Source of the DNA: Bacteroidota bacterium
GTDB taxonomy: Bacteria; Bacteroidota; Bacteroidia; AKYH767-A; JAHEYN01
Reading direction: 5' to 3'
Assembly: GCA_023251555.1 (NCBI GenBank)
Contig: JAHEYN010000007.1
Span: 1-64,000, forward strand
Length of the DNA: 64,000 nucleotides
The number at the start of each line of letters is the position of its first letter. Position 1 is the first letter of the stretch. A program made the translations under genes and the position numbers. The notes beneath the pieces were generated by a model, which saw only the letters and a program-made list of their open reading frames with translations, did not search any database and was not told the origin of the DNA. Below, piece after piece: positions 35,283 through 63,450 of this stretch.

Positions 35283-38200
35283 ATGAAGCAATATTGTTAC
35301 CTTATTCTTTGCACATCCTTGTTTTTTTACGAGGCAGCAAATGCAACTGTTGTAACCATAGGCACTGCTGCCAGTTCGGACAACAATATTCCCATCCTGA
35401 TTACCGCGGGGGCCAGTACTACGAAATACACGGATTTTGTGGGAATTATATACAGTGGTGAATTAACTGCCGCCGGGGCCATTTCCGGGGTTATCAACTC
35501 CATTTCCTTTTATAAATATACTGCGTATGGTTATACTGCCGGAAACCTGAACCTCAGCATCTACATGGTACACACCACCCAGTTCGGAATTTCCACATCT
35601 GCATCATGGGATACCCAGTTTGCAGCCGATAATCCTACTCTTGTATACAGCACAACCACGGGGAGCATAACTGCAGTCGCCGGCTGGAAGACCTTTACTA
35701 CCAATGGCGCATTTACGTGGAATGGCACAGACCATGTCAAAATATACTTGCGGGCATACAAACCCAGCAATGGACCCACTTCTTTTCCAACCTGGGCTGT
35801 TAATACAACGATGGCTAAACCGGATGGAGCAGCATGGACAGGAACAGCCTCTCCTCCCGGTACTCCTGCTCCTATAGCCAGAAGGCCCCAGATGCAGCTT
35901 GATATATCCACTCCTAAAGTTGACGCGGGGATCAGTGCCGTAACCGGCCCCGCCAACCCTTTTGCATCAGGAGGAACATATAATGTGGATGTAACACTTA
36001 ATTACTTTAACAATTCTTTCTGTACCACCGCCAACATGACCGGTGCCACCATCAACTGGGAAGTTGATGGCGTTGCACAGGTTTCTTATAGCTGGTCGGG
36101 CAGCGTGGCGATTGGCGCCAGCACGACTGCCACCATCGGTTCTTTTAACTTTTCGGCACAGACGCATACGATAAAAGCCTGGACATCAAACCCTAACGGC
36201 GCAGGCGATGCCGTGACCTCGAATGATACGGCTTATATTGTGCTCACCTGCTCATCCGCTCCTGTCGCGGATGTGGACTGGGCAACGCAATCCGTGACAA
36301 TAGACTTTGATAAAGATTGTCCTTCCTCTGCAGCCATGTACACTTTTAATCTTTCTACCGGCAATGACCCCAATTCAAGAATCTGCAGTTACTCTTCCAG
36401 CGGAACCGTTGGAGGAACGGTAAGTATTACATTCCCTGCAGGAACTGCATTCCAGACTCTCGGAGGAACTTTTAATGGTGTTACACTCGGTACCATCACT
36501 CCTTCGGGAACAACGCTTACTTTTAATGTTCCGGGCACTTCTCCGTTACTGGTTAATACCAACTCTTCAATTACAATAATTATAAAAGGGATATTAAACC
36601 CTCCGGCAGGAAGTTACAATTTTGCCGTCAACACTATTAAGGTGAAAAACCTCAGCGGGGGATGGGATCAGCACAGCACTGCTGCTATTCCCATCACCAT
36701 TAATTCATGTACATTCTCACAAACTGCATTTGTAGTCAAATTTGATCAGAGTGCAGCCAATTTCAGAACCGGTTCAGTGATGCAGGCATCCAACGGGAAT
36801 TACTTTGTCGAGGGAATACTCACTTCCCTTTTTCTTGCCTGCCTGGATAACCAGGGGAATTTTTTATGGTCCAATGGTTACACGGGAGGAGACGGCTTGT
36901 CTACAATGGTGCAAAGTACGGATGGGAATATTGTTTTATCCGATGGTGGTTCATGGAATACATACAAGCTATTTAAGGTTGATGCTTCTAACGGCAACGT
37001 TATGTGGGGGTCTGCCTATACGGGATCTACAGATATTAATGCACAGGAAATAGGAGGAATCATCATCAGGACAACAGATGGAGGGTATCTGCTGGGTGGA
37101 GGTGCTAATTACTGGCATGGAAATGTTGGCGGGGAAGCATATTTGGTCAAAACGAACGCAAACGGCACCTGGCAATGGGATAAGGCCTATGTGGGTACTG
37201 GTACGGCAAGTTCCGGCGGCATGGGCTGCATAAGGCAGACAACAGATGGAGGCTTTGTTATGGCAGGAAGTTCAACTATGTATGCGCCGGGTTATTCCAA
37301 TAGTCTTTTTGTGGTAAAAGCAAACAGCGTTGGTACATTTCAATGGGCGAAAGCCTATGGTGAGACCTCAAGAAATGACTGGGCCAAGGATATACGGCAG
37401 ACGACTGACGGCGGATATATGGTCCTGGGTAATTCCTATCCCGGAGGCCCCACCACAGAAAGCACTCCGGTTTTGATTAAGATCAATGCTTCCGGAACAA
37501 TGCAGTGGGTGAAAAAATACGGGGGAGTCAAGAGGGAAGAAGGGGTTTCAATAGTACAGAGTACAGACGGAAACTTTGTAATATTGGGGCATACGCAAAC
37601 CTATAACATAGGAGGCAACCTTCTGATGGATCCTTCCCTGATGAAAACAGACCCCAATGGAAATGTTTTATGGGCAAGATCCTATGGAGGAACTACCAGC
37701 GATTACATATATGGGGCATCCCATCAGCAGCTTGCGCTGACTGCCGATGGAGGTTATTTCTTTGCATACACTACGGCTGTTACAGGACCTTCTGCTGAAT
37801 ACATCACTGTTGTCAAGACTGATGCCAACGGCTTCACAGCCTGCAACCAGCAAGCCTTTCTCCCCTCAGTTACAGATGCCACATCTCTTTTTATGACTGT
37901 GAATGCTACTCCTGCTGAGATGAACGGAGGGTCCCCCGCAGGAGCTCTGACATATACCGCTTCCTCACTGAATAACTATTCATCTGTATGCGTTCCCATA
38001 GTTTTACCGGTAGAAGTGCTTTCCCTTTCCGGTTACAGCAGGAATGATATGAATGTACTTGAATGGATAACAGCCAGCGAACTGAATAATGATTATTTCA
38101 GCGTTGAAAGAAGTGATGAGGGGGATTTTTTTGAAAGCATAGGAAAAGTAAAAGGATCGGGAAACGCAACATTCCCCCGGGATTATTCATTCACAGATAT

Positions 38201-38552
38201 CTCTCATGGCGGGAAGGGAGTGGTCTATTACCGCCTCAGGCAGGTTGACTTTGACGGGAACTACGCTTACTCAAACATAATATCAATCACCCGATCACCC
38301 GATCACTCAATCACCATTTATCCTGTGCCTGCCCGGGGAGAACTGGTTTATGAAATTTATTCGGATGAAAAATCGGAAAAGGAAGTTTCAGTCATTGATT
38401 TGATTGGAAGTGAAGTATTGAATGAACGCATTAAGGTGGTGAGAGGCAGAAATACATTCAGGCTTGACATTAATAATCTCTCGCAGGGAGCTTATATAAT
38501 GAAGATAAACGACAACTGCGGGCAGCGCCAGGAAAAATTTATAAAACAATAA
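35283..38552 (+). CDS. T9SS-exported protein with seven TDGGY-type propeller repeats
   Basis: This 1089-residue protein has a signal peptide ending near AANAT. An N-terminal beta-rich domain (about 25-200) is followed by a CARDB-like domain (VDAGISAVTGPANPFASGGTY onward). Then come seven repeats of about 50-60 residues between 480 and 880 with the pattern Q-T-T-D-G-G-x...G...L-x-K-T-D-x-x-G-x-x-x-W, probably a seven-bladed beta-propeller. Next is the linker shared across the array (LPVEVLSLSGYSRNDMNVLEW, FSVERSDEG, YYRLRQVDFDGNY), and finally a type A sorting domain (ITIYPVPARGELVYE, DLIGSEVL, GAYIMKI, ends EKFIKQ). It is the first gene of the array, 11 nt before the next. It is surface-exported; ligand binding is inferred. 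Confidence 0.88.
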   Translation: MKQYCYLILCTSLFFYEAANATVVTIGTAASSDNNIPILITAGASTTKYTDFVGIIYSGELTAAGAISGVINSISFYKYTAYGYTAGNLNLSIYMVHTTQFGISTSASWDTQFAADNPTLVYSTTTGSITAVAGWKTFTTNGAFTWNGTDHVKIYLRAYKPSNGPTSFPTWAVNTTMAKPDGAAWTGTASPPGTPAPIARRPQMQLDISTPKVDAGISAVTGPANPFASGGTYNVDVTLNYFNNSFCTTANMTGATINWEVDGVAQVSYSWSGSVAIGASTTATIGSFNFSAQTHTIKAWTSNPNGAGDAVTSNDTAYIVLTCSSAPVADVDWATQSVTIDFDKDCPSSAAMYTFNLSTGNDPNSRICSYSSSGTVGGTVSITFPAGTAFQTLGGTFNGVTLGTITPSGTTLTFNVPGTSPLLVNTNSSITIIIKGILNPPAGSYNFAVNTIKVKNLSGGWDQHSTAAIPITINSCTFSQTAFVVKFDQSAANFRTGSVMQASNGNYFVEGILTSLFLACLDNQGNFLWSNGYTGGDGLSTMVQSTDGNIVLSDGGSWNTYKLFKVDASNGNVMWGSAYTGSTDINAQEIGGIIIRTTDGGYLLGGGANYWHGNVGGEAYLVKTNANGTWQWDKAYVGTGTASSGGMGCIRQTTDGGFVMAGSSTMYAPGYSNSLFVVKANSVGTFQWAKAYGETSRNDWAKDIRQTTDGGYMVLGNSYPGGPTTESTPVLIKINASGTMQWVKKYGGVKREEGVSIVQSTDGNFVILGHTQTYNIGGNLLMDPSLMKTDPNGNVLWARSYGGTTSDYIYGASHQQLALTADGGYFFAYTTAVTGPSAEYITVVKTDANGFTACNQQAFLPSVTDATSLFMTVNATPAEMNGGSPAGALTYTASSLNNYSSVCVPIVLPVEVLSLSGYSRNDMNVLEWITASELNNDYFSVERSDEGDFFESIGKVKGSGNATFPRDYSFTDISHGGKGVVYYRLRQVDFDGNYAYSNIISITRSPDHSITIYPVPARGELVYEIYSDEKSEKEVSVIDLIGSEVLNERIKVVRGRNTFRLDINNLSQGAYIMKINDNCGQRQEKFIKQ

Positions 38553-38563: not shown

Positions 38564-40594
38564 ATGAAAAAGACGATATGCTATGTCGTACCATTTGCAC
38601 TCTTTTGCTTATCCTTAGTTCCTTCAGCATCTTCCGGGCAGGGTTCCGTGATATGGGCAACTTATTATGGCTCTACCGATGAAGATGATTCGGAAGGCAT
38701 CACCACAGATCCGTGGGGAAATGTTTTTCTTGCCGGCACCACTACAAGTGGATCAGGCATTGCAACAGCCGGTGCTTACCAGACCTTTCTTGCGACGAAT
38801 CCCTTCCCGCCCAGCTACGATGCGTTTCTTGCCAAGTTCGGCACGGGGGGGAATCTCCTGTGGTGTACATATTTCGGCGGAACGAATAATGAAAATGCAT
38901 ACGCCACTGCTTCGGATATTAATGGAAACGTATACATGAGCGGATATACCACCAGCTCTTCCGGAGTTGCTTCGGCAGGGGCGTTTAAGACCAGCTACAG
39001 TGGCGGGGTGGACGCATTTCTTGTGAAGTTCAATTCAGCCGGAACTTTCCAGTGGTCAACCTATTACGGGGGTACCGGCGACGACCGCGGCTATGGTCTT
39101 TCTACGGATGCCTCCGGGAATGCATATCTTGCCGGGACTTGCGCAAGCGCTGCCAATATTGCCTCCGGTGGCTTCCAGACTACTTATGGCGGAGCATCAG
39201 ATGCATATCTCGTTAAGTTTACTTCTGCGGGAGCCCGTGTGTGGGCCACTTATTATGGAGGCAGCGGCTTTGAATACGGTTATTGTACCGCTATAGAGCC
39301 TGCTTCAGGGAATGTATACCTTGCCGGTGAAACCGGGAGTGCCGCCGGTATCGCTACGGCAGGAGCATATAAAACCACGAACAGCGGCGGCGGTGATGCT
39401 TTCGTTGTGAAATTTGACCCTTCGGGCGGCCGGTTATGGGGCACCTATTATGGCGGAACCAGTTCCGAGGAGGCTTTTGGTATTGCCACAGATGCTACTC
39501 TCAGCTTATATATGGGAGGGAGTACGGCAAGCAGCACAGGCATTGCGTCTCCTTCAGGTTTTAAAACAAATTATGGAGGAGTGGCAGATGCATATCTGGT
39601 AAAGTTCGATGCATCCGGCGTGCGGCAATGGGCAACATACTACGGGCAGTCGGATCCCGAAGAGATGATCCGCACCTGTGTCGCCACAGACCCCGCTTCC
39701 GGGAATGTCTTTCTTGTCGGGGATACATACAACGCCTCAACAGGCAATCCTTCGGGCATGGCTTACTTAGGCTACCAGTTAAACCTGAACGGGTATGAAA
39801 ATGAGTTCATGGTTACTTTCGATCCTAACGGGAACCGCAACTGTGCCACTTATTATGGATTCAATGAGGAGGAGGCCGGAAAAGTGGCTATGGATGGAAA
39901 CGGGAATGTATATATGGTGGGACATACAAGCAGTCCCGGAATGGCTACCCCGGGCGGATTCCAGACCGATTTTGCCGGTGGCCCTTCCGATGCATACGTG
40001 GTGAAATTTGCTGCCTGTATCGTGTTGCCCGTGGAGCTGGTTTCTTTCAGGGCAAGGCAGACCATTCCTTCTGAAATACTTACCTCATGGGTTACGGCAA
40101 GCGAAACAAATAACGACTACTTTATACTCGAACGGAGTACAGACGGAGTGTATTTTGAACCCGTTGCGAAAATAAAGGGGGCCGGTAACAGCACCACTGA
40201 AAGGAAGTATGAGTTTACCGATCACGTTCCTGCCGTAAACACCAAACAACAAACCCTGTACTATCGCCTTAAGCAGTATGACTATAACGACAATTACACG
40301 TATTCCCGGGTTATCTCCATGAGCAACAAAGCCAGGAGTCGTGCGGTGAATGTTTATCCTAATCCTTCCGGCGGGGATATAAGCTGCGAGTTCTATAGCA
40401 GCCTGACCACTCCGGCAACAATTACCGTAAGAGATATCTTCGGGAATATAATGCAGCAAAAGAAAATTTTAAAACCTTCAAAAGGATTGAATACCATTCC
40501 GCTTGAAGTAACTTCCCTTTCAGGCGGTATGTATTTCATCCAGGTTGATTATGATCTCAGCCAGGTACAATTAGTGAAGTTTGTTAAACAATAA
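38564..40594 (+). CDS. T9SS-exported protein with seven SBBP-like propeller repeats
   Basis: This 676-residue protein has a signal peptide ending near SASSGQG. Seven repeats of about 60 residues follow, each starting near W-x-T-Y-Y-G-G and containing G-N-V-Y-L-A-G-x-T and D-A-x-L-V-K-F, the SBBP/beta-propeller type. They are followed by the common linker (LPVELVSFRARQTIPSEI, NNDYFILERSTDG) and a sorting domain (VNVYPNPSGGDISCEFY, DIFGNIMQ, GGMYFIQV, ends VKFVKQ). Its N-terminal repeats are close in type to those of 61441-63450 at the far end of the array, but they share no obvious DNA identity. The gap to the upstream gene is 11 nt, so it is probably cotranscribed. Confidence 0.88.
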   Translation: MKKTICYVVPFALFCLSLVPSASSGQGSVIWATYYGSTDEDDSEGITTDPWGNVFLAGTTTSGSGIATAGAYQTFLATNPFPPSYDAFLAKFGTGGNLLWCTYFGGTNNENAYATASDINGNVYMSGYTTSSSGVASAGAFKTSYSGGVDAFLVKFNSAGTFQWSTYYGGTGDDRGYGLSTDASGNAYLAGTCASAANIASGGFQTTYGGASDAYLVKFTSAGARVWATYYGGSGFEYGYCTAIEPASGNVYLAGETGSAAGIATAGAYKTTNSGGGDAFVVKFDPSGGRLWGTYYGGTSSEEAFGIATDATLSLYMGGSTASSTGIASPSGFKTNYGGVADAYLVKFDASGVRQWATYYGQSDPEEMIRTCVATDPASGNVFLVGDTYNASTGNPSGMAYLGYQLNLNGYENEFMVTFDPNGNRNCATYYGFNEEEAGKVAMDGNGNVYMVGHTSSPGMATPGGFQTDFAGGPSDAYVVKFAACIVLPVELVSFRARQTIPSEILTSWVTASETNNDYFILERSTDGVYFEPVAKIKGAGNSTTERKYEFTDHVPAVNTKQQTLYYRLKQYDYNDNYTYSRVISMSNKARSRAVNVYPNPSGGDISCEFYSSLTTPATITVRDIFGNIMQQKKILKPSKGLNTIPLEVTSLSGGMYFIQVDYDLSQVQLVKFVKQ

Positions 40595-41370: not shown

Positions 41371-43371
41371 ATGACCAGGGTGATAATTTTCCTGGCATTC
41401 CCGTATTATTCGCATGCACAGTGGTCCACTAACTCAGCTGTAAATAATGTCCTGAGTGTTGCTGCCAACAACCAGTGGAACGTCGCGACCAACAACCAGT
41501 GGAAGCAGTTTATCATCAGCGACGGAAGCGGGGGAGCTATTGTCGTGTGGAAAGATGAACGTAACGGAACTACAAACGGGGATGTCTTTGCGCAGCGGAT
41601 AGATGTGAACGGTGTAGTGCAATGGACTACAGATGGGGTGGCAATCTGTACTCAGCCTTATGACCAGCTTTTTCCTACGCTCACAACCGATGGATCCGGC
41701 GGCGCGATCATTACCTGGTATGATTGCAGGAGATTCGCCAGCACTTCCACCACCGACATCTATGCACAGCGGATCAGTTCCGCCGGCGTGCCTCAATGGG
41801 CAACAGACGGGGTGGTTATCTGTACCCAGCTGGCCAATAAAAGCCAACAGTATCCGAACATCACAAGTGACGGAAGCGGAGGAGCTATCATTACCTGGTA
41901 TGGCCTGAGGAATTCCGGGCCCTTAACCAATGAAATTTATGCACAGCGCATTGACGGCAGCGGAAATGTCCTCTGGCCGGTCAACGGAGTGTCAATATGC
42001 TCGGCAACCAATAGCCAGTATTATCCCACTATTGCTTCTGACGGTGCGGGCGGAGCTATTATCTCCTGGTATGATTACCGCAGTTCCTCCAATTATGATA
42101 TTTACGCCCAGCGGGTGGATGGAAGCGGAGTGGTTCAATGGGCTACGGACGGGCTGGCGGTTTGCACTGCAATAAACAATAACTGGAAGCAAACAATGAT
42201 CAGCGATGGATCCGGGGGTGCAATTATAGTATGGCATGATTACAGAGCCGGTGCCACCGCCGATATCTATGCCCAGAGGGTGGATGCCTCAGGGGTAATG
42301 CAATGGACAACCGACGGAGTCGCAATATGTACCGCTGCCAATGACCAGAGTATCCCGACCATGATAACAGACGGATCGGGAGGATGTATCATTACATGGC
42401 ATGATGCGAGAGTCGCTGGCAACGACGATGTCTATGCCCAGCGGGTAAATGCATCGGGTGCAGTTCAGTGGACAGCAGACGGGATTGCAATATGTGCGGC
42501 AACAGGGAGTCAGCACAGTCCGACTATAATCAGCGACGGAAGCGGGGGTGCTTATATTACATGGTATGATCTCAGGAATGGAACCAACTGGGATGTTTAT
42601 GCCCAGAGAATAAACCTTTCGGGTGTTTCCCAGTGGATAACCGACGGCGTGGATATATGCACCGCAGCAGGCAACCAGTGGTATCCGCAGCTGGCGCCTT
42701 CAACATGCGGGGCTATTATTGCCTGGCATGATTACCGCGGGGGAACTTATAATGATATGTATGCCCAGCAGGTGAGTCCTGCCGGCGTCCTCGGTGGTAC
42801 ATGCCCCCTTCCCCTTGAATTGATTTTGTTTACCGCTCATTATTCAGGCCGGGAAAATATCCTCGAATGGAAAACCGGTTCCGAAATCAACAATGATTTT
42901 TTTGCTGTCGAAAGAAGTTATGACGGGAAAAATTTTGAGGAAATCGGAAAAGTAAGGGGGGCAGGAAACGCATCAGTTCCCCGGAACTACTCATTCACCG
43001 ATCCGCACGCCCTTTCCAAGAGAATGGAGGCCGGTGAAGAGGTATACTACCGCCTGAAGCAGGTTGACTTTGACGGGCGTTTCATATACTCCAATACAGT
43101 CTCAGTCACCCGGCCGCTCAATCATCAAATCAGTGTTTACCCCATTCCCTCCGGGAAGGAAGTAACCTGCTCGTTTTATTCAAGTGGAAAGTCAGAGGTG
43201 AAAATAGTCGTGTCAGATTTAATGGGGAGTATTCTCATGAGTGAAAATCGCTGTGTTGTGAGCGGCGAGAACAGCTTCCGCATGGATATATCCCGTCTCC
43301 CTCATGGAATATATTTCATCATTGTAAGTGATGGTTTAAAACAGGATCAGACAAGATTTATTAAAGAATAA
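41371..43371 (+). CDS. T9SS-exported protein with eight DGSGGA/YAQR repeats
   Basis: It has 666 residues from the ATG at 41371 (a TTG at 41344 is in frame but gives a poorer signal peptide). The signal is MTRVIIFLAFPYYSHAQ. Eight repeats of about 50-55 residues follow, each with S-D-G-S-G-G-A-I-I-x-W-x-D-x-R, then D-I-Y-A-Q-R and G-x-x-Q-W-x-T-D-G-x-x-I-C; the eighth is degenerate. The pattern suits a beta-propeller, but the family is not one I can name. The common linker (LPLELILFTAHYSGRENILEW, YYRLKQVDFDGRF) and a sorting domain (ISVYPIPSGKEVTCSFY, DLMGSILM, GIYFIIV, ends TRFIKE) close it. Confidence 0.85.
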   Translation: MTRVIIFLAFPYYSHAQWSTNSAVNNVLSVAANNQWNVATNNQWKQFIISDGSGGAIVVWKDERNGTTNGDVFAQRIDVNGVVQWTTDGVAICTQPYDQLFPTLTTDGSGGAIITWYDCRRFASTSTTDIYAQRISSAGVPQWATDGVVICTQLANKSQQYPNITSDGSGGAIITWYGLRNSGPLTNEIYAQRIDGSGNVLWPVNGVSICSATNSQYYPTIASDGAGGAIISWYDYRSSSNYDIYAQRVDGSGVVQWATDGLAVCTAINNNWKQTMISDGSGGAIIVWHDYRAGATADIYAQRVDASGVMQWTTDGVAICTAANDQSIPTMITDGSGGCIITWHDARVAGNDDVYAQRVNASGAVQWTADGIAICAATGSQHSPTIISDGSGGAYITWYDLRNGTNWDVYAQRINLSGVSQWITDGVDICTAAGNQWYPQLAPSTCGAIIAWHDYRGGTYNDMYAQQVSPAGVLGGTCPLPLELILFTAHYSGRENILEWKTGSEINNDFFAVERSYDGKNFEEIGKVRGAGNASVPRNYSFTDPHALSKRMEAGEEVYYRLKQVDFDGRFIYSNTVSVTRPLNHQISVYPIPSGKEVTCSFYSSGKSEVKIVVSDLMGSILMSENRCVVSGENSFRMDISRLPHGIYFIIVSDGLKQDQTRFIKE

Positions 43372-43395: not shown

Positions 43396-45078
43396 ATGAA
43401 AAAGAAAATCACATCCATTATTAGCCTGGCAGCGATGCTCCTGGGGTTGCACAATGCAAACTGTTTTGCACAGAACATCGCAGCCGGAAGGTATCATTCG
43501 CTGTTTGTCTGTACAGGCGGAACTGTTAATGCCTGCGGGTATGATAACCATGGCCAGCTGGGTGACGGGGGTCTTGTTGACCAGTTTGCGCCTGTCCAGG
43601 TAAGCGGGCTCACGGGCATTACGGCTGTTGCTGCAGGAATATACCATTCACTTTTTCTTAAAAGCGATGGTACCGTGTGGGCATGCGGATATAACCTCCA
43701 TGGTGAACTCGGCGATGGTACAAACAACCAGCATTCCACTCCTATACAGGTGAGCGGGCTTTCCAATATTGTCGCTATAGCGGCAGGATATTATCATTCC
43801 GTGTTTCTCAGGGGTGATGGCACAGTATGGGCATGCGGGTGGAATACCTACGGGCAGATTGGTGATGGGACTACCGGTGTTGACAGGTTGCTTCCCGTCC
43901 AGGTGAGCGGGCTTACAGGTATCATGGCGCTTGGAACGGGAGGCTATCACTCTCTTTATCTTAAAAATGATAATACTGCCTGGTCGTGCGGATACAATGG
44001 TTTCGGGCAGCTGGGGGACGGAACCAATGTTGCGAAATCCACACCCTTTCAGATAGCCACCCTTTCAGGAATTGTTCACCTGGCCGGAGGTGATAACCAT
44101 TCCCTTTTTGTTAAAAATGATGGAACAGCATGGTCCTGCGGATACAACAACCTTTACGGCCAGCTCGGCGACGGAACTAATACCAACAGGTATACTCCCG
44201 TGCCGGTAACGGGGCTTACAGGTATTTTAAAGTGCGCAACAGGAACATATAACTCTATGTTTGTGAAGAACGACGGTACCGTGTGGACATGTGGGAACAA
44301 TCAGTCGGGGCAGCTGGGCTATGCCAGCCCCGGCACAACTACCTGTCTGCAGGTTACCACGCTGTCCGGCATCCTGACCGTGGCGGGAGGATGGAACCAC
44401 TCCATATTTATTCAAAATACCGGCGCAGTATATACATGCGGACAGGATGGTGACGGGCAATTAGGCGATGGTAGTCCCGCTTCCAATAAAACAATTCCTG
44501 TGCAGGCGCTCACAACTTCATGCATTATCCTGCCTGTGAACCTTGTTTCTTTCAGCGGAAGAAACATGGGCGGTAAAAATATCCTCGAATGGAAAACCGG
44601 TTCCGAAATCAATAATGCTTGTTTTATTGTTGAACGAAGTTCAGATGAAAATAATTTTGAACCTGTAGGAAAAGTAAACGGGGCAGGCAATTCTATCGGT
44701 GAGAAAAATTATTCTTTTACTGATGAATACCCTTTCCCGGGAACAAATTATTACCGGTTGAAGCAGGTTGATTACGATGGCAACTTTTCTTATTCAAAAA
44801 CAATTTCTATAAAAACCAACGACAAACGACACACAATAAACACCTACCCTGTTCCATCTGATAAAGAATTAAACTATGAATTTTATTCGGAGAGAAATGT
44901 TGAAGCGATTATTACTGTGTTGGATGTGCTTGGAAACATTGTTTCACAAACACCTGTGAAAACAAAGCATGGGATGAATAAATCACAACTTGAGATTACA
45001 GGTTTATCAAAAGGGGTGTATTTTCTGAAAATGGATAATGGAATGGAACAATCACAAAATATATTTATTAAACAGTAA
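43396..45078 (+). CDS. T9SS-exported RCC1-repeat propeller protein
   Basis: This 560-residue protein has a signal peptide ending near NCFAQN. Seven RCC1-type repeats, about 50 residues each, follow with the hallmarks G-x-Y-H-S-L-F-L-K-x-D-G-T-V-W-A-C-G and G-Q-L-G-D-G-T. RCC1 forms a seven-bladed propeller, first known from the eukaryotic chromatin protein; secreted bacterial versions occur in many phyla. Next are the common linker (LPVNLVSFSGRNMGGKNILEW) and a sorting domain (INTYPVPSDKELNYEFY, DVLGNIVS, GVYFLKM, ends NIFIKQ). The last 440 nt are almost identical to those of the next genes. Confidence 0.92.
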   Translation: MKKKITSIISLAAMLLGLHNANCFAQNIAAGRYHSLFVCTGGTVNACGYDNHGQLGDGGLVDQFAPVQVSGLTGITAVAAGIYHSLFLKSDGTVWACGYNLHGELGDGTNNQHSTPIQVSGLSNIVAIAAGYYHSVFLRGDGTVWACGWNTYGQIGDGTTGVDRLLPVQVSGLTGIMALGTGGYHSLYLKNDNTAWSCGYNGFGQLGDGTNVAKSTPFQIATLSGIVHLAGGDNHSLFVKNDGTAWSCGYNNLYGQLGDGTNTNRYTPVPVTGLTGILKCATGTYNSMFVKNDGTVWTCGNNQSGQLGYASPGTTTCLQVTTLSGILTVAGGWNHSIFIQNTGAVYTCGQDGDGQLGDGSPASNKTIPVQALTTSCIILPVNLVSFSGRNMGGKNILEWKTGSEINNACFIVERSSDENNFEPVGKVNGAGNSIGEKNYSFTDEYPFPGTNYYRLKQVDYDGNFSYSKTISIKTNDKRHTINTYPVPSDKELNYEFYSERNVEAIITVLDVLGNIVSQTPVKTKHGMNKSQLEITGLSKGVYFLKMDNGMEQSQNIFIKQ

Positions 45079-45092: not shown

Positions 45093-46829
45093 ATGAAAAT
45101 CATAAAAAAAATGACACTTGCAAAATTCATTGCTTTGATATTTACCTGCTGCCTGTGCTCGGTTTCTACTGCACAAAAGATTGCGGGGGGAGTTTTTCAT
45201 TCTCTTGCCGTATGTAACAACGGAACGGTTATGAGCTGGGGGTATGATTCTAATGGTCAGCTTGGAGACGGGGGTACTAATACCGATAAAAGTTTTCCCG
45301 TTTCGGTAGTGGGACTAACAGGGATCACCGGGGTTGCGGGCGGATACTATCATTCATTAGCAGTTGATAATTCCGGCAATGTATGGAGTTGGGGAGATGA
45401 TGCCCGCGGGCAACTGGGTGACAATGCCACGCTTACTGCATACTCTACACCTGTGGCAGTGACATCGATATCCGGCGTTAGTGCTGTTTCTGCAGGATGG
45501 TATCACTCCATTGCCCTTGATAATACGGGTAAAGTGTGGGGATGGGGTTACGACCAGGTATATGGCGCAGTGGGTGATAATGCAGCACTGGTAAACCAGC
45601 CAACCCCGGTTGCAGTAAGTCCTGCGTGGGGCGTAAATACTATTACAGCTATTTCGGCCGGAGAATACCATTCTCTTGCACTTGACAATACGGGGAAGGT
45701 ATGGGCCTGGGGTATGGGCACTTACGGGCAATTAGGTAATGGGGGCAATTCGGTTCAACCTACTCCGGTAGCAGTCACTGCTTCCTGGGGGTCAAATACA
45801 ATCATTGCAATTGCTGCCGGAGGAACTCATTCCCTTGCACTTGATAATACGGGAAAGGTCTGGAGCTGGGGGCAGGATAACAATGGTCAGTTGGGCGATA
45901 ATGCAGCTCTCTCCAATCAATCTGTTCCTGTTGCCGTAAGCGTTCCCTGGCCTGGAACTATCACAGCTATTTCTGCGGGACAGTCCTCTTCTTTTGCTAT
46001 TGACAACACCGGCAAGGTCTGGGCCTGGGGTTTTGATCAGTTTTATGGCTCGCTGGGTGATAATGCAACCCTCGCAGATCAGCCTACGCCTGTTCCCGTG
46101 AGTATTGCATGGGGAACGAACACCATCACTGCTATTGCATCAGGAAGCAGGCATTCTCTTGTTATTGACAATACGGGTCTACTATGGGGATGGGGACAGG
46201 ATATAAACGGCCAGATAGGTGATAATATGTCGCTCACAAATCATTACACCCCTGTACTGACAGGGCTTTCCTGCACGGCACTGTCTGTTCAGCTGCTTTA
46301 TTTTAAAGGGAAGTATGAACAAAACACAGCACTCCTTGAGTGGAGCTCGGCAAATGAGATAAATAACGAATCATTTATTGTCGAACGCAGCAGATATGAA
46401 AATAATTTTGAACCTGTAGGAGAAGTAAAAGGAGCAGGTAATTCAACAGTTGAAAAAAACTATTCTTTCATTGATAAATACCCTTTCCCGGGAACAAATT
46501 ATTACCGGTTGAAGCAGGTTGATTACGATGGCAACTTTTCTTATTCAAAAACTATTTCAATAACAACCAGCGACAAACGACACACAATAAACATCTACCC
46601 TGTTCCATCCGATAAAGAGTTAAACTGTGAGTTTTATTCTTCCGAAAATTTTCTGGTGGATATTGCGGTAACGGATGTGCTCGGGAATACCATACTGCGG
46701 AAGGACTTAAAGGCAAAACAGGGGATGAATAAGGAAAAAATTGACATTGAAATTTTATCTCCCGGAATATATTTTCTGAAAATATATGATGGTATAAAAC
46801 AAGAACAGATGGAATTGATAAAACAATAA
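45093..46829 (+). CDS. T9SS-exported RCC1-repeat propeller protein, second copy type
   Basis: This 578-residue protein has a signal peptide ending near VSTAQ. Seven RCC1 repeats follow, here with the pattern H-S-L-A-L-D-N-T-G-K-V-W-x-W-G-x-x-x-x-G-Q-L-G-D-N and sometimes an inserted PVAVSxxWGxNTITAI strand. It is similar in type to the neighbour at 43396 but uses W-G instead of C-G blade ends, so the two are diverged paralogues. The linker (VQLLYFKGKYEQNTALLEW) and sorting domain (INIYPVPSDKELNCEFY, DVLGNTIL, GIYFLKI, ends MELIKQ) are nearly identical at DNA level to neighbouring genes. The 3' tail matches the remnant at 58024-58100. Confidence 0.92.
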   Translation: MKIIKKMTLAKFIALIFTCCLCSVSTAQKIAGGVFHSLAVCNNGTVMSWGYDSNGQLGDGGTNTDKSFPVSVVGLTGITGVAGGYYHSLAVDNSGNVWSWGDDARGQLGDNATLTAYSTPVAVTSISGVSAVSAGWYHSIALDNTGKVWGWGYDQVYGAVGDNAALVNQPTPVAVSPAWGVNTITAISAGEYHSLALDNTGKVWAWGMGTYGQLGNGGNSVQPTPVAVTASWGSNTIIAIAAGGTHSLALDNTGKVWSWGQDNNGQLGDNAALSNQSVPVAVSVPWPGTITAISAGQSSSFAIDNTGKVWAWGFDQFYGSLGDNATLADQPTPVPVSIAWGTNTITAIASGSRHSLVIDNTGLLWGWGQDINGQIGDNMSLTNHYTPVLTGLSCTALSVQLLYFKGKYEQNTALLEWSSANEINNESFIVERSRYENNFEPVGEVKGAGNSTVEKNYSFIDKYPFPGTNYYRLKQVDYDGNFSYSKTISITTSDKRHTINIYPVPSDKELNCEFYSSENFLVDIAVTDVLGNTILRKDLKAKQGMNKEKIDIEILSPGIYFLKIYDGIKQEQMELIKQ

Positions 46830-55422: not shown

Positions 55423-57459
55423 ATGAAAACATATACAAAAACATTACTCGTCATACTTGTTATTTATTATTTATTTCCTCTTATCCCTTCCGCCCAGCCA
55501 ACTCTTCTCTGGGCAAAACGAATGGGTGGAACTACTACAGATGCCGGTTATTCCATCGCGGTGGACGGCAGCGGTAATGTTTTTACCACAGGGAAATTTT
55601 TAGGTACAGCTAACTTGGATCCCGGAGCAGGTACTTACAATCTGACTGATCCGGCCGGAGGTGATGTTTTTGTCAGCAAGTTAGATGGAGCGGGTAACTT
55701 TGTTTATGCCAAAAGCATGGGGGGGGCAGGTCAGGGTGCTGGTTATTCCATCGCATTGGACGGAAGCGGCAATATTTATACTACAGGGATTTATGATGGT
55801 ACAGCCGACTTTGACCCCGGAGCGGGTACTTATAATCTGACTTTCGCAGGGAGTTTAGATGTTTTCGTCAGCAAACTGGATGCTTCCGGTAATTTTTTAT
55901 GGGCGAAAAGCTTAGGCGGAACAAGTGATGACAGAGGTTATTCCCTTGCAGTGGATGGCAGCAGTAATGTTTATACCACGGGGTATTTTTATGGTACAGC
56001 CGACTTCGACCCGGGAGCAGGTACTTATAATCTGAATGCTGCAATGGGAGGTTCAGGGTATCCTGATATTTTCATCAGCAAGTTAGATGCATCAGGAAAC
56101 TTTGCATGGGCAAAAAGCATCGGCGGAACATATTATGATTATGGCAGGGCTATCGCGGTGGACGGCAGCGGCAATGTCTATACTGTTGGGTCTTTTTATG
56201 GTACAGTCGACTTCGACCCCGGAGCAGGCACTTACAATCTTACCTCATCGAACTATGATGTTTTCGTCAGTAAGCTGGATGGATCGGGTAACTTTATGTG
56301 GGCAAAAAACATGGGAGGAACAGGTGCCGATGACTGTTGGGCCATAGATGTAGATGCCAGTGGTGATATTTACATTGCCGGAAAATTTGTAGGTGTAGCC
56401 GATTTTGACCCCGGAGCAGGTACTTACAATCTCACTTCTATGGGTACTGATGATATTTTTCTTAGCAGGTTAGATGGATCGGGTAATCTTGTATGGGCGG
56501 TAAGTGCGGGTGGAAATTTAAATGATTACGCTCATTCCGTCACTTTGGATGGTATCGGAAATGTGTATATCATGGGCGATCAGTACAGCGCCACGGTGGA
56601 CTACGACCCTGGTGTGGCCACATTTAATGTGACTAATACGGGTACCGAAGCCAGCTTTATTGCCCGGTATGATATTAACGGCAATTTTCTATGTGCCATG
56701 ACCATTACACCCGGGCATAACGAAACGAATTTTGGTGACAGGCATATAGCTGCGAGCGGTAATAGTGTGTGGGTTACAGCGTCTTTTGATAATGCCCTCG
56801 CTGATTTTGACCCCTGTCCTGCTAATTACTATCCTGGTTTATATGGCAATACGGATGTTTATATAGCAAAGTATGATTTCACCAACTGCAATTGCACGGT
56901 TCTGCCAGTCGAATGGTTTTCATTCACTGGAAGAAATGAAGGAGACCAAAATATTTTGGAATGGACAACTGCAAGTGAAATTAATAACGATCATTTTTCT
57001 GTTGAACGAAGTGACGAGGGGCATAATTTCGAAAAAATAGGCAATGTAAGAGGCATAGTCAACACAAATGAAAAACAAAACTATTCATTCATAGATACAA
57101 ATCCGTTTTCAGGAATAAATTATTATCGCCTGAAACAAACTGACTATAACAGCAAATTCACTTATTCAAAAATCATTTCAATCAACAATCAACAAATCAA
57201 CAAATCAGTAATCAGCATTTATCCCAATCCTTCTGATGGTGAGTTTACTGTTTCCGGTTTGTTGCACCCGGTTATCATAAAAATCTATAACATTTTAGGG
57301 CAGGAAGTTTACTCCATAGGGATGGACCTCCATAACTATAACCGGCAATCCGTTTCTTTGGGAGAAAGCGAAAGTTTTAAACTTAATTTAAATAGTTTGC
57401 CGGCAGGAATGTATTTCTTAAAAGCAGGCAATGCACAAATAAAATTTATTAAGCAGTAA
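55423..57459 (+). CDS. T9SS-exported protein with seven DPGAGTYNL propeller repeats
   Basis: This 678-residue protein has a signal peptide ending near IPSAQ. Seven repeats of about 60 residues follow, containing W-A-K-S-x-G-G, A-V-D-G-S-G-N-V-Y-T-x-G, F-D-P-G-A-G-T-Y-N-L and V-F-V-S-K-L-D-x-S-G-N-F, a variant of the SBBP-type propeller. The common linker (LPVEWFSFTGRNEGDQNILEW, YYRLKQTDYNSKF) is followed by a sorting domain of the YPNP form (ISIYPNPSDGEFTVSG, NILGQEVY, GMYFLKA, ends IKFIKQ), which is diverged from the near-identical neighbours. It follows an extragenic repeat, so it may have its own promoter. Confidence 0.88.
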   Translation: MKTYTKTLLVILVIYYLFPLIPSAQPTLLWAKRMGGTTTDAGYSIAVDGSGNVFTTGKFLGTANLDPGAGTYNLTDPAGGDVFVSKLDGAGNFVYAKSMGGAGQGAGYSIALDGSGNIYTTGIYDGTADFDPGAGTYNLTFAGSLDVFVSKLDASGNFLWAKSLGGTSDDRGYSLAVDGSSNVYTTGYFYGTADFDPGAGTYNLNAAMGGSGYPDIFISKLDASGNFAWAKSIGGTYYDYGRAIAVDGSGNVYTVGSFYGTVDFDPGAGTYNLTSSNYDVFVSKLDGSGNFMWAKNMGGTGADDCWAIDVDASGDIYIAGKFVGVADFDPGAGTYNLTSMGTDDIFLSRLDGSGNLVWAVSAGGNLNDYAHSVTLDGIGNVYIMGDQYSATVDYDPGVATFNVTNTGTEASFIARYDINGNFLCAMTITPGHNETNFGDRHIAASGNSVWVTASFDNALADFDPCPANYYPGLYGNTDVYIAKYDFTNCNCTVLPVEWFSFTGRNEGDQNILEWTTASEINNDHFSVERSDEGHNFEKIGNVRGIVNTNEKQNYSFIDTNPFSGINYYRLKQTDYNSKFTYSKIISINNQQINKSVISIYPNPSDGEFTVSGLLHPVIIKIYNILGQEVYSIGMDLHNYNRQSVSLGESESFKLNLNSLPAGMYFLKAGNAQIKFIKQ

Positions 57460-57487: not shown

Positions 57488-57979
57488 ATGAAGACTATTC
57501 CCCCCAATATTATTGCTTTTCTTATCTGTTGTCTTTTGTCAACTGTCAAATCATATGCTCAGTCCGAAGGATTCCTCAGTATTGCAAATGTACCCGGGAT
57601 AGTGCAGGAAAAATTCAAACTGCTGTACCCCGAACAAGATATTGCCAGGGCAGCATGGGAATATGAGAATGGTGGCTATGAGGCATACATAAAAGATAAA
57701 AAAGGCACTACAGGCGATGTGATGTTTTTTAACACAGAGGGGAAATTAGAGTACCATATTTTTACGGAAGGCAGCATCCGTACGGGTACAGAGCGGGAGA
57801 TAAATGCAGAAGCATTGCCCGAAGCTATCCGGATACATCTGTCAGGAACATACAATGGAAAAATTATCCGTGCATCGGTCGTTAAGTTTGACCTGGAAGA
57901 AAAAACAAAAGGATACAGGGTAATGCTTGAGGATATACAGCTTCTATATGACAGCGAAGGCAGGCTGCAAAAGCAGTGA
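57488..57979 (+). CDS. Secreted PepSY-like protein
   Basis: It has 163 residues from the ATG at 57488 (a TTG at 57473 is in frame but no better). The signal peptide is MKTIPPNIIAFLICCLLST onward, ending near SYAQS. Two tandem units of about 60 residues resemble PepSY-like domains: VPGIVQEKFKLLYPEQDIARAAWEYENGGYEAYI and LPEAIRIHLSGTYNGKIIRASVVKFDLEEKTKGYRVML share the pattern of an amphipathic helix, then a W/V-x-x-E/K strand and a Y-E/R strand. Such proteins occur in the periplasm of Bacteroidota, and their function is unknown. It has no sorting domain, unlike all its neighbours. Confidence 0.65.
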   Translation: MKTIPPNIIAFLICCLLSTVKSYAQSEGFLSIANVPGIVQEKFKLLYPEQDIARAAWEYENGGYEAYIKDKKGTTGDVMFFNTEGKLEYHIFTEGSIRTGTEREINAEALPEAIRIHLSGTYNGKIIRASVVKFDLEEKTKGYRVMLEDIQLLYDSEGRLQKQ

Positions 57980-58116: not shown

Positions 58117-61100
58117 ATGAAAACCTCCACCCCCTTTATTCTAAAAGCTGCCCTGCTGCTGGCAGCATGTTATGGCTTGTCAGTACAAAAGAGCCATGCA
58201 GTGATATGTATTACTGCCCCACCTGCCCCTCTTACACTTGCAGTGCCCCCTTCATACATGGGATTTACGAATATTACGCTCAGTGCCATCAACCGCACTT
58301 CCACTGATGACGAGCTTTGGGCAGATGTGAACACGACCAACCAGTCTACCAGGCTTACCCAGAGTACTGCCTACACATTGACATTCACCCATGATGATCT
58401 CTGGAATGTGCTGGTGCGTGCATGGATTGATTATAACAATGATGGAGATTTTCTTGATGCCGGGGAACTGCTGGGTACTTCTGCATTGTCGCCCGGGATG
58501 GGAACCCCTTATACAGGAACGATAAATTTTAACGCTTCGGCCTCAGCCACCGGCTGGAAAAACATGAGAGTTACGGTAGACCTTGACGACGGCTCAATGT
58601 CACTGGGAGCTCCCGTTTCCAACAATTGCTGGTACGGCGAAGTTGAAGATTACCAGGTAAACCTTGCGACATCTGCAGCGATGTCCTATACTTCATGTAC
58701 GACGACCCAGGGCAATACCTCTGTGGTATACCAGAACACTACGGACCAGCAAGTGATAGGCGTAGAGATAGTGACAGGCACAGGAGGAGCATCTCCCCTT
58801 ACAGCCACGAGTTTTACATTCCAGACCAACGGGACTACAAGCATATCGGATATCAGTAATGCGAAGCTGTGGACTACATCAAGCAGCTGCAACTTTGCAG
58901 CTGTAACCCAGCTTGGGGGAACAGTGGCTTCCCCGCCTGCCAGCGGAACACCTTTTACCATCAGCGGATTTACATTTACCCTGGCTCCCGGTACAAATTA
59001 TTTCTGGCTGACCTATGATATATCTCCCACGGCTGTATCCGGGAATGTAATAGATGCACAGTGTACTGCGCTTACGGCAGGAGGTTCTCCGAGAACACCG
59101 GCAACGACATCGCCTGCCGGCTCCCGCCCGATATCCGACGGGTTTACATCTGCAGTTACAACGCAGCCCAACACGGGAGTGGTGGGAGTGTCTATGGCTA
59201 ACCAGCTTGTGGTAGGGGTAGAGGTGACCATAGCATCGCAGACATTGACTGCGACAAGCTTCACGTTTAACACAACGGGATCGACAAATGCCCTCACTGA
59301 TATAGCGAGTGCAAGCTTATGGTACACCGGAACCAATATGACGTTTAACACTGCAACGCAGTTCGGGAGTATAGTGTCCTCGCCCAATGGCAGCTTCTCC
59401 TTCACAGGCTCAACGGCCCTGGCCCCCGGGACATACTATTTTTGGCTGACCTATACGATTTCCGGCAGCGCCACTGTCGGGGACAAAGTGGATGCGCAGT
59501 GTACCTCGCTGACTGTATCGGGGCTGGCACATACCCCCGCACCCACATCTCCAGCAGGTGACAGGACCATTGTGGCAACTGCCAATATCCCGCTTCAGTA
59601 CCAGGCTACTTTCGGTACCACTGCCGATGAGGATGGAATATGTTTTGACCTTACTTCAGACGGAGGATACATTATCAATGCCCGTTACCAGAGTGATTGC
59701 ATGGCATGTCCAAATATGGAACAGGGATGGCTTATTAAAACCGATGCCAGTGCCGCAATTCTATGGAGCAGTATTTTCGGCGGAGGGCATTCGGAAGAAG
59801 GAAGATGGATCAAGACTACAACAGATGGTTATATCGTTGCGGGCGAAACAAACAGCAATGCTCCCATCCAGTTTGATATGAACTTTGCCAAGTTTAACAG
59901 CGCCGGAACCATGCAATGGAATAAGAGCGTTGGATCAACCTCTACCGCCGAAGGATATATGGATATTTACACTCCCAGTTCCGGCATGGTTACCTCCGAC
60001 GGAGGCTTTGTTTTCTGCTGCGAAGGCAGTATCTCAGGCTTCAATAAAGATTTTTATGTTGTTAAAATGACTGCTGCCGGGACCTTTGAATGGGGTACCA
60101 CTATAGGAGGTACTTCAATGGAACTGGCCAACAGTGTTCAGCAGACTACTGAAGGAGGATACATTGTGGCAGGTTCTGGATATATTGGATCCACTAACCA
60201 GGGAGCCTACCTTGTGAAACTGAATTCTGCCGGTACTTTCCAGTGGGGGAAATCGTATGATTATACTTCGTCCGGGACACCTGCGGCCAGGGCTCATGAT
60301 ATCCGCCAGACCAGCGACGGCGGATTTATTGTTGTCGGATCCAGCAGTAATGGTTCCGCCGACTGGGATATGTTGCTGATGAAAACAAACAGTGCCGGAA
60401 CGGTTCAGTGGTACAAATGTTATGGTACTTCAAATAATGAATGGGGATTATCTTTCGCGGCTACTGTCGATGGAGGCTACATCCTGTCAGGTTATGGAAA
60501 CAGTACTAACTACTGGGGTATCTATAATGACGGACTGTTGGTGAAAGTAGATGGAACAGGCGGATTGCAGTGGGCAAAAGCATATGGAGGAGCCCAGGAA
60601 GACCAGGCAATAAAAGTCATGCAGACCACTGACGGTGGTTATGCCTTTACCGGGTATACAAAAAGTTTTGGTGCAGGAGCAGAAGATGTGTGGTTTGGAA
60701 AGACCAATGAAGTTGGAGAGACGGGCGCCAATGCATGTAATTTTCAGTCTCTTTCATTTGCTGTATCATCCGGTGGCACTACTGTTACGGGAGGATCCGG
60801 TGCTGCAAGAGGGGCAATTACCACCAATACCATTGTCGCAGGCTCTCTCTCCGTGACACCCAATATCGTTTGCCAGATTGTTCTGCCCATTGAACTGCTC
60901 GACTTCTCCGCTTCACTTCTTCCTGATAACCAGGTTAAGTGTAATTGGACTACAGGTACTGAAACATATAATGATTATTTCGTTGTTGAACATAGTGTTG
61001 ACGCAAGGTCATTTGCGCCTATTGGATCAGTCCGGGGGGCAGGAAACTCTAATGTGAACCAATATTATTCTTTTAAAGATGAGCACCCTTCTCCCGGTAT

Positions 61101-61434
61101 AAATTACTACCGGCTAAGGCAGGTTGACTTCGACGGGCAATACACATATACACAAGTGGTAAGTGTTGAGATATCCCGATTCCCTTATGTCGTTGTCATC
61201 TTCCCGAACCCCGTACAGAAACAACTCAATTGTGTCATATCTGCCGATCAGAATACAGCAATAACCGCTTCGGTTATTGATATGCTTGGCAATACTGTGG
61301 CAGGCGAAAGGAGAAAACTTTCCCGCGGAAAAAATAATCTCGCCTTCGATATTGCCACCCTCCCGCAGGGAGTTTACCTTTTCCTGGTCAGCGATGGGGT
61401 GAAACAGCAACAGCTGAAATTTGTAAAGGAATAA
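58117..61434 (+). CDS. T9SS-exported protein: GEVED, two BNR-associated-like domains, seven-repeat propeller
   Basis: This 1105-residue protein has a signal peptide ending near SHAV. A GEVED domain covers about 30-185 (AWIDYNNDGDFLDAGELLG, closing WYGEVEDYQV). Two domains of about 145 residues follow with PLTATSFTFQT, DISNAKLW, and LAPGTNYFWLTYDIS, a BNR-associated type related to the repeats of the gene at 46863. Then seven repeats of about 55 residues have T-D-G-G-Y-I-x-x-G and L-V-K-x-N-S-A-G-T-F-Q-W-G-K. The linker is LPIELLDFSASLLPDNQVKCNW; the sorting domain VVIFPNPVQKQLNCVIS, DMLGNTVA, GVYLFLV ends LKFVKE. It is the last but one complete array gene, 6 nt before the next. Confidence 0.9.
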   Translation: MKTSTPFILKAALLLAACYGLSVQKSHAVICITAPPAPLTLAVPPSYMGFTNITLSAINRTSTDDELWADVNTTNQSTRLTQSTAYTLTFTHDDLWNVLVRAWIDYNNDGDFLDAGELLGTSALSPGMGTPYTGTINFNASASATGWKNMRVTVDLDDGSMSLGAPVSNNCWYGEVEDYQVNLATSAAMSYTSCTTTQGNTSVVYQNTTDQQVIGVEIVTGTGGASPLTATSFTFQTNGTTSISDISNAKLWTTSSSCNFAAVTQLGGTVASPPASGTPFTISGFTFTLAPGTNYFWLTYDISPTAVSGNVIDAQCTALTAGGSPRTPATTSPAGSRPISDGFTSAVTTQPNTGVVGVSMANQLVVGVEVTIASQTLTATSFTFNTTGSTNALTDIASASLWYTGTNMTFNTATQFGSIVSSPNGSFSFTGSTALAPGTYYFWLTYTISGSATVGDKVDAQCTSLTVSGLAHTPAPTSPAGDRTIVATANIPLQYQATFGTTADEDGICFDLTSDGGYIINARYQSDCMACPNMEQGWLIKTDASAAILWSSIFGGGHSEEGRWIKTTTDGYIVAGETNSNAPIQFDMNFAKFNSAGTMQWNKSVGSTSTAEGYMDIYTPSSGMVTSDGGFVFCCEGSISGFNKDFYVVKMTAAGTFEWGTTIGGTSMELANSVQQTTEGGYIVAGSGYIGSTNQGAYLVKLNSAGTFQWGKSYDYTSSGTPAARAHDIRQTSDGGFIVVGSSSNGSADWDMLLMKTNSAGTVQWYKCYGTSNNEWGLSFAATVDGGYILSGYGNSTNYWGIYNDGLLVKVDGTGGLQWAKAYGGAQEDQAIKVMQTTDGGYAFTGYTKSFGAGAEDVWFGKTNEVGETGANACNFQSLSFAVSSGGTTVTGGSGAARGAITTNTIVAGSLSVTPNIVCQIVLPIELLDFSASLLPDNQVKCNWTTGTETYNDYFVVEHSVDARSFAPIGSVRGAGNSNVNQYYSFKDEHPSPGINYYRLRQVDFDGQYTYTQVVSVEISRFPYVVVIFPNPVQKQLNCVISADQNTAITASVIDMLGNTVAGERRKLSRGKNNLAFDIATLPQGVYLFLVSDGVKQQQLKFVKE

Positions 61435-61440
61435 TACTGC

Positions 61441-63450
61441 ATGCCGTTTTCCCTGAGAGTTGTAAATAGGGCACTTCTCATATTTGTGTACCTTCTTCCG
61501 GCAGAGGTATTCTCTCAGGGCGCTCCGCTTCAGTGGGCTACCTATTACGGTGGTTCCGCCTCTGAATATTCCAATGCCGTGGTTACTGATGTTTCCGGAA
61601 ATGTTTACCTCGGCGGAACAACGGTCAGTCCCTCAGGAATAGCTTCTCCCGGTTCCTGGCAGACTTCCTACGGAGGAGGTGCCAATGATGCTTATCTCGT
61701 CAAGTTTGACCCATCCGGGAACCGCCTCTGGGCAACTTATTACGGGGGTACAGCCGATGAAGAATGTTACGCTCTTGCAGTTGACGGCGCAGGAAATATT
61801 TATATGGCGGGATATACAGGAAGCTCCGGAGGCATTGCATCCGGAGGATTTCAGAATACCTTTGGCGGAGGTTATGATGCCTTTCTCGTAAAATTTAACT
61901 CTGCCGGAACGCCTCTGTGGTCAAGCTATTACGGCGGCACCGGCGCTGAATACGGATGCGCCCTTTCCATTGATGCATCTGATAACATCTACCTCGGCGG
62001 CCGTACCTACAGCCCTTCCGGGATTGCTTCAGGCGGATCCCAGAATACTTTCGGAGGCGGACTGTGGGATGCTTTTCTTGTGAAATTCAGCTCTTCAGGT
62101 ACACGCCTGTGGGGAACTTACTACGGGGGACTTGGTGATGATATGGGTTACGGAGTAGCTGTAGATGGGGTTTCCGGGAGTGTTTACCTTGACGGATGGA
62201 CCAGCAGTACAGCTAACATTGCTTCCGCCGGGTTTCAGAATACTTTCGGAGGAGGATCGTGGGACGCTTTCCTTGTGAAATTTTCTTCCTCGGGGACACG
62301 TATCTGGGGTACTTACTATGGTAAAACTTTTGATGACGAAGGCTTCAGCGCCTGTACGGATCTTTCAGGGAATGTATACATGGGAGGAGATACCTATAGC
62401 ACTTCCGGCATAGCTTCCGGCGGCTCCCAGAGTACTTTTGGCGGAGGCTTGTATGATGCCTTCCTCGTAAAGTTCGATTCCGGGGGCAACCGCCTATGGG
62501 GTACCTATTACGGCGGAACAGGCAGTGAAGAAAATTTTGGAGTTGTTACGGACCCTGCCGGCAATGTTTATCTTTCGGGCGACAGCTACAGCGCAAACAA
62601 TATTGCTTCCGCCGGATACCAGAATACACGCATCGGAACAGAAAATCCTTTCGTGGCAGTTTTTAATGCTTCAGGCGTGCGCCAGTGCGCTACCTACTAT
62701 GGGCAGGCGCACGACGAAGGCGGACACACCGCGCTTGATGCCTCCGGCAACGTGTACCTCTCGGGATATACACCCGGCACCACCGGTATCGCTACAGCAG
62801 GCGCATTCCAGACAACGTACGGCGGCGGATTATACGATGCTTTCCTCGTGAAACTCAGCGCCTGCGGGACACTCCCGCTTACCCTGCTTTCGTTCTCGGG
62901 CCAGGGCAGGGGAGGAGTGAACAGCCTCCAATGGGAAACTGCCGGCGAAGAGGATAATGATTACTTTGCCGTGGAAAAATCGGTTGACGGGAAAAACTTT
63001 GAGACCATCGGGAAAGTAAATGGATCCGGAAATTCAACCGCCCGGCACAGTTATTCTTTCACGGACTACCTCACATCCTTCTCCTCTCCGGATGGAGATG
63101 GAAGCCGGAGCGGAGATCTGTATTACCGCCTCAGGCAGGTTGACTTTAACGGAAACTATAACTTTTCCCGTGTCATAACGGTCAGTAATGAGAGGATTTT
63201 TTTGTCCCCCCGTGTTTTCCCCAACCCTGTGAATAAACTGCTCTCTCTGGAATTTTATTCTGCAGAAGCAGATCTCTTCGATCTGTCGGTTTCTGATTTT
63301 ACAGGGAGTGTTATGATTCATGAAAAGGTCAGAAGTGTAAAAGGCCTTAACTGCGTTCATGTTATTACAGCTTCTCTGGATCCCGGCCTGTTTGTAATCT
63401 CGCTGTCCGGCGGCCGGAGTGCCTGTAACAGTATTTTTTCAAAGGAGTAA
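61441..63450 (+). CDS. T9SS-exported protein with seven SBBP-like propeller repeats
   Basis: This 669-residue protein has a signal peptide ending near EVFSQG. Seven repeats of about 60 residues follow, starting W-A/G-T-Y-Y-G-G, with G-N-V-Y-L-x-G-x-T-Y-S, G-I-A-S-G-G-x-Q-N-T-F-G-G-G and D-A-F-L-V-K-F, SBBP-type like 38564-40594. The linker reads LPLTLLSFSGQGRGGVNSLQW and the sorting domain SPRVFPNPVNKLLSLEFY, DFTGSVMI, GLFVISL. The last residues (SKE) are shorter than in the others. The start codon lies 6 nt after the previous stop. Confidence 0.88.
   Translation: MPFSLRVVNRALLIFVYLLPAEVFSQGAPLQWATYYGGSASEYSNAVVTDVSGNVYLGGTTVSPSGIASPGSWQTSYGGGANDAYLVKFDPSGNRLWATYYGGTADEECYALAVDGAGNIYMAGYTGSSGGIASGGFQNTFGGGYDAFLVKFNSAGTPLWSSYYGGTGAEYGCALSIDASDNIYLGGRTYSPSGIASGGSQNTFGGGLWDAFLVKFSSSGTRLWGTYYGGLGDDMGYGVAVDGVSGSVYLDGWTSSTANIASAGFQNTFGGGSWDAFLVKFSSSGTRIWGTYYGKTFDDEGFSACTDLSGNVYMGGDTYSTSGIASGGSQSTFGGGLYDAFLVKFDSGGNRLWGTYYGGTGSEENFGVVTDPAGNVYLSGDSYSANNIASAGYQNTRIGTENPFVAVFNASGVRQCATYYGQAHDEGGHTALDASGNVYLSGYTPGTTGIATAGAFQTTYGGGLYDAFLVKLSACGTLPLTLLSFSGQGRGGVNSLQWETAGEEDNDYFAVEKSVDGKNFETIGKVNGSGNSTARHSYSFTDYLTSFSSPDGDGSRSGDLYYRLRQVDFNGNYNFSRVITVSNERIFLSPRVFPNPVNKLLSLEFYSAEADLFDLSVSDFTGSVMIHEKVRSVKGLNCVHVITASLDPGLFVISLSGGRSACNSIFSKE

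Follow-up and report, generated by a model that had tools for sequence, protein, structure and literature searches.

Neighbouring T9SS-exported beta-propeller genes in a Bacteroidota genome that probably exchange their sorting tails by short-tract gene conversion

The window analysed here is a stretch of 64,000 nucleotides from a Bacteroidota genome. On its plus strand, between positions 35283 and 63450, lie eleven genes whose products each consist of an apparent signal peptide, a propeller made of repeats (the head), a linker and a sorting domain of T9SS type A (Table 1). The genome has several arrays of T9SS-exported beta-propeller genes, of which this one is the longest. The eleven open reading frames are present where the original prediction placed them, and its description of them as consecutive and mostly 6-42 nt apart holds for seven of the ten gaps but not for the other three, which measure 776, 116 and 657 nt. 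The 776-nt gap (38564/41371) contains two related small open reading frames, the 116-nt gap (53438/55423) a REP-like palindrome, and the 657-nt gap (55423/58117) a twelfth gene, which is PepSY-like and not of the T9SS type. Cotranscription is putative, and is suggested only by the common strand and the short gaps. Scans for sigma-70 promoters, Bacteroidota -33/-7 promoters and terminators performed no better than chance, and a search of Rfam gave no match.

Table 1. Genes of the array and tail DNA tracts with a close copy in a neighbouring gene (window positions)
Feature	Position	Strand	Remarks
T9SS protein, N-terminal region then TDGGY-type propeller, 7 repeats	35283..38552	+	linker + sorting tail from 38004
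T9SS protein, SBBP propeller, 7 repeats	38564..40594	+	linker + tail from 40025; class matches CylK
T9SS protein, YAQR-type propeller, 8 repeats	41371..43371	+	linker + tail from 42808
T9SS protein, RCC1 propeller, 7 repeats	43396..45078	+	linker + tail from 44530
T9SS protein, RCC1 propeller, 7 repeats	45093..46829	+	linker + tail from 46281
T9SS protein, six BNR_assoc_N-like repeats (by-eye count), TDGGY propeller, 7 repeats	46863..51599	+	linker + tail from 51051
T9SS protein, WRIEKRDL-type propeller, 7 repeats	51642..53417	+	linker + tail from 52869
T9SS protein, TDGGY propeller, 7 repeats	53438..55306	+	linker + tail from 54758
T9SS protein, SBBP propeller, 7 repeats	55423..57459	+	linker + tail from 56902
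Small exported PepSY-like protein, no sorting tail, breaks array	57488..57979	+	PF11396, 25.6 bits, just under cut-off 28.3
T9SS protein, GEVED + BNR_assoc_N domains, TDGGY propeller, 7 repeats	58117..61434	+	linker + tail from 60883
T9SS protein, SBBP propeller, 7 repeats	61441..63450	+	linker + weak sorting tail from 62872
Tail DNA tract of 43396	44704..44888	+	93% identical over 185 nt to 46455-46639, tail of 45093
Tail DNA tract of 51642 (WRIEKRDL head)	53176..53415	+	91% identical over 240 nt to 55065-55304, tail of 53438 (TDGGY)

The two small open reading frames, 40610-40825 (71 aa) and 41164-41340 (58 aa), have a common start, MIG-x-x-FADGF-x-DFD-x-W, and a basic C-terminus; no relatives of either were found elsewhere among the loci examined. 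The PepSY-like gene has no paralogue in the stretches examined. Just upstream of the array, two minus-strand genes encode a T9SS subtilase (31687-33858) and a protein of the Fic/DOC family (34088-34891). The array is followed by a gene (L032:691-3927, which is positions 63691-66927 of contig C16) for another T9SS protein, with a tail of a different type and a head that gives weak Reg_prop and Sortilin/Vps10 propeller matches.

Membership in the T9SS cargo family is indicated by the C-terminal ends of the proteins. The Pfam sorting domain PF18962 is matched in all eleven, although weakly in 61441 (18.4 bits against a cut-off of 27). As judged by eye, all eleven also have a hydrophobic N-terminal start, and in eight of them the apparent cleavage site is followed directly by Gln, an apparent mature start that would fit the Q-rule (PMC10653852). 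A PorU-type sortase (NF033707) is encoded in the genome and scores over its cut-off, at 1400.7 bits. Proteins of this family are exported by Sec, pass through the T9SS and lose their C-terminal domain (PMC8545088). The proposal that the array joins modular heads to a T9SS export tail is supported, both by the sortase in the genome and by the tail DNA tracts common to unrelated heads that are described below.

The genome (2.84 Mb in 55 contigs) has at least 150 T9SS tails, and the array is their longest run, with ten tails over the cut-off, or eleven with 61441; the next runs are of six and five. When 150 tails were placed at random in 2000 trials, the longest run had a mean of 3.1 and a maximum of 7, and so the array exceeds chance. 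Runs in other genomes, read by eye from positions, reach at most 3-4 in the stretches seen (in one of these genomes, G015, 150 of 271 candidates were scored). Elsewhere in this genome, other arrays carry the same linker and tail on FG-GAP, NHL, Kelch-like, SBBP, TDGGY, YAQR and RCC1 heads.

Repeat counts by motif bear out the numbers originally given, namely seven in ten genes and eight in 41371, and Pfam likewise agrees with the assignment of RCC1 repeats to 43396 and 45093 and of SBBP repeats to 38564, 55423 and 61441. The TDGGY, YAQR and WRIEKRDL classes have no trustworthy Pfam repeat model; weak Pfam calls inside the repeat stretches (DUF1294, RNF220, Ntox28 and TcdB_toxin_midN) were set aside as chance matches. 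The RCC1 heads match UVR8 and RCC1, both of which are seven-bladed propellers. The SBBP and TDGGY heads are homologous to another solved propeller, CylK (PDB 7RON, 7FH6): protein 61441 matches it over 336 residues (about 1e-36), the TDGGY protein 53438 with a value of about 5e-9, and the CylK propeller has seven blades (PMC8916777). The WRIEKRDL type occurs in two of 42 genomes, this one and G031, with seven repeats in both. The claim that all the propellers are seven-bladed nevertheless fails for 41371. Because YAQR relatives in this genome and its order-mates also read as eight repeats (by-eye count), YAQR is an eight-repeat family rather than a seven-repeat one. Structure prediction without alignment gave a mean pLDDT of 41 for 41371 and 43 for 51642, which is too poor for a blade count.

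The heads had also been described as unrelated to one another, and this proved incorrect for most of them. Nine of the eleven belong to one detectable superfamily (SBBP, TDGGY, WRIEKRDL and YAQR), and RCC1 alone stands apart. Double-repeat profiles connect SBBP with TDGGY at 98%, SBBP with WRIEKRDL at 93% and YAQR with TDGGY at 91%, against at most 1.7% for column-shuffled controls of these pairs; the same profiles linked RCC1 to none of the other head classes.

The linker and sorting domain together span about 180 residues. The statement that all eleven genes end in the same linker is correct in the sense of a family, but the identity of neighbouring tails ranges from 34% to 73%. The module is not peculiar to the locus either: linker plus tail occur in all 41 related genomes searched (none of them from the same genus), and all 40 order-mates have the linker. 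Tails within arrays are more alike than tails of different arrays (0.445 versus 0.386, p 0.0002). The original prediction had offered, as its own refutation test, the question of whether the tails are more alike than is usual in the genome, and the answer is split, because the five tails of 43396-55306 have a mean identity of 0.63 whereas the other six, at 0.39, are at the background between arrays genome-wide (about 0.39). In a tree of 61 tails, in which bootstrap support had not settled, the eleven do not form one clade; eight changes are counted, at least three of them forced by well supported branches.

Heads and tails are discordant in that the closest tails belong to proteins with unrelated heads, and proteins with similar SBBP or YAQR heads have tails that diverge. 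Tails on unrelated heads reach a protein identity of 94% in a pair on contig C9 (SBBP/YAQR), 79% in a pair on contig C32 and 73% in the window (51642/53438). The agreement extends to the DNA. In the C9 pair, which consists of the SBBP gene L047:3110-5923 and the YAQR gene L047:7656-9713, the tails are 99.4% identical over 500 nt and 97.1% over the whole 652-nt match, and the identity runs about 120 nt past the stop codon and drops to noise at the start of the linker. The C32 pair has 353 identical nucleotides under FG-GAP and NHL heads. On C32 the constant block includes the signal peptide of the next gene, but the idea that it always does so was dropped, as this is not general in the window.

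Within the window, tracts of 91-94% identity are found in neighbouring tails of 41371-55306. Because a tract test that uses all sites can be confounded by regional conservation, only its third-position version is relied on here. Third positions agree at 43/45 sites in 43396/45093, 53/60 in 51642/53438 and 20/22 in 41371/43396, and each tract reaches the floor p value of 0.0002, where the Bonferroni limit is 0.0009, in a permutation that treats third positions as exchangeable although they are not entirely neutral. In 27 pairs of tails, versus three pairs of heads, there are tracts of 40 nt or longer with at least 90% identity. The pattern is that by which gene conversion is recognised, namely DNA tracts bounded by breakpoints, encompassing silent sites and lying in otherwise different genes. 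Putative local gene conversion of the tails is the best explanation of these tracts. Because six of the eleven tails stand at background similarity, exchange in the window would be either confined to a sub-block or old.

The more conventional account is that whole T9SS genes were duplicated or acquired singly and then diverged, with tails kept alike by the demands of export and no exchange of DNA. This account draws on the presence of the linker and tail throughout the order and on the existence of whole-gene relatives, such as 58117 and a gene on contig C49, which agree in head (66%) as well as tail (70%). Moreover, among 146 T9SS genes of other genomes, only three pairs have tail tracts in common, all with related heads, and therefore the occurrence of unrelated heads on shared tails is restricted, within this limited sample, to the present genome. 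Neighbouring SBBP T9SS genes of another Bacteroidota genome, C13_metabat.bin.6 (L052:6316-11959 and L054:5139-11962), have heads that are 72-76% identical and tails that are alike; these are whole-gene duplicates, unlike the situation in this genome. However, selection on protein keeps neither third positions nor the DNA beyond a stop codon identical, and near-identical tails under unrelated heads go beyond what whole-gene duplication alone can produce, so that gradual accumulation without exchange is quite unlikely. The near-identical tails could instead be an artefact of metagenome assembly, in which reads from different genes were joined at a common repeat. The assembly is divided into those 55 contigs, and two of them, C32 and C6, end within such genes. 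Yet there are several differences between the C9 tails close to the linker, the window tracts are imperfect at 91-94%, and all the joints are in frame and end in one conserved junction motif, which makes an artefact most improbable.

That junction is itself distinctive. In 52 of 60 genes of the genome, including all eleven in the window, the linker is preceded by a Cys at a distance of no more than seven residues, where 9% would be expected; in other genomes it is found in only one of 20 proteins, most of which have other heads. The junction Cys thus marks a standard, lineage-specific joint between head and tail. A second Cys, usually in the last blade, occupies a place typical of the family, at about -50 to -59 in TDGGY, about -60 to -74 in SBBP and -34 in YAQR heads. 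It is the constant position of this residue that counts, rather than its presence, since a Cys is expected in 55% of all 68-residue stretches. In several SBBP genes, including 38564 and 61441, Cys takes the place of the signature Trp in the last repeat. In the SBBP gene L047:3110-5923 of the C9 pair, the junction Cys is missing and all repeats found contain Trp; the head of this gene was possibly imported recently. The head of 51642 has just two Cys residues. In the RCC1 protein 45093, the only other Cys of the head is in the first blade. A putative disulphide between the junction Cys and the second Cys probably closes the propeller.

Taken together, these data make it probable that the genome holds T9SS propeller arrays in which short-tract gene conversion of the tails and a standard joint sustain a recombinable surface repertoire of heads. 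Each protein would be exported by Sec and then cross the outer membrane by way of the T9SS, and the type A sorting domain would be cut off by the PorU-type sortase, as is known for the family. One linker and sorting domain module is attached to propellers of several families, and neighbouring tails would exchange DNA by short-tract conversion, with breakpoints that fall at the linker and tail or within them, leaving the heads different. The joint is standardised by the Cys, 2-7 residues before the linker, and the predicted disulphide to the second Cys would close the propeller. The repertoire of heads, presumably binding modules, could in this way be enlarged or recombined without harm to the export signal, and the array may let the cell re-equip its surface. 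A bolder and rather doubtful version envisages a lineage-specific plug-in, in which a propeller of any family is placed at a fixed Cys-xx-LPV joint, tied to its last blade by the disulphide, maintained by conversion, and with heads swapped as cassettes; if true, the surface repertoire would evolve fast.

The heads might alternatively be mainly enzymes, and the array a set of extracellular enzymes. The nearest solved relative of the SBBP heads, CylK, is an alkylating enzyme (PMC8916777), and other arrays of the genome include NHL and SMP-30-like heads. CylK is a cyanobacterial protein whose N-terminal domain binds Ca, and it carries no T9SS tail. However, its active site lies between the propeller and the N-terminal domain (PMC8916777), which the short SBBP proteins lack. 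Pfam called no catalytic domain in any of the eleven proteins, and the enzyme reading is accordingly unlikely.

Among known systems, the array resembles T9SS type A cargo (TIGR04183 / PF18962), with which it has in common the apparent signal peptide, the variable head, the linker, the C-terminal sorting domain and a sortase in the genome; it differs in the run of eleven, the exchange of tails between heads and the lineage-specific junction Cys. The gingipains and HagA of Porphyromonas gingivalis are likewise surface proteins exported by the T9SS, and their diversity arises from domain rearrangement and allelic exchange (PMC5266723), but they consist of protease catalytic and adhesin domains in a few genes, whereas the array puts many propeller families on a shared tail. 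Polymorphic toxins also combine a constant with an exchangeable part through recombination (PMC3482391). There it is the C-terminus that is exchanged, and the array is reversed, with a variable N-terminus and a constant C-terminus; none of the eleven proteins received a toxin domain call, and no immunity gene was recognised.

T9SS proteins are modular, and to our knowledge the step that joins a head to a tail is seldom observed as it happens. In this genome, the sequence by itself points to recent copying of tails under unrelated propellers, and the junction Cys makes the joint recognisable, which offers a testable mechanism through which free-living Bacteroidota might expand their surface repertoires. 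A literature search found no paper on T9SS propeller arrays, which is weak evidence of novelty because most subscription papers lay outside its scope.

The REP-like palindrome of the 116-nt gap, TCCGCCTTCGCGTTTCGCTACGGCGGA, is located at 55319-55345 in the window, and again at 29326-29352 and 29446-29472. Genome-wide it has 83 matches with at most two mismatches (control 0), often clustered about 70 or 120 nt apart. Thirteen of the sites follow a T9SS tail at a distance of no more than 300 nt downstream, against about 1.3 under random placement, a comparison uncorrected for intergenic bias.
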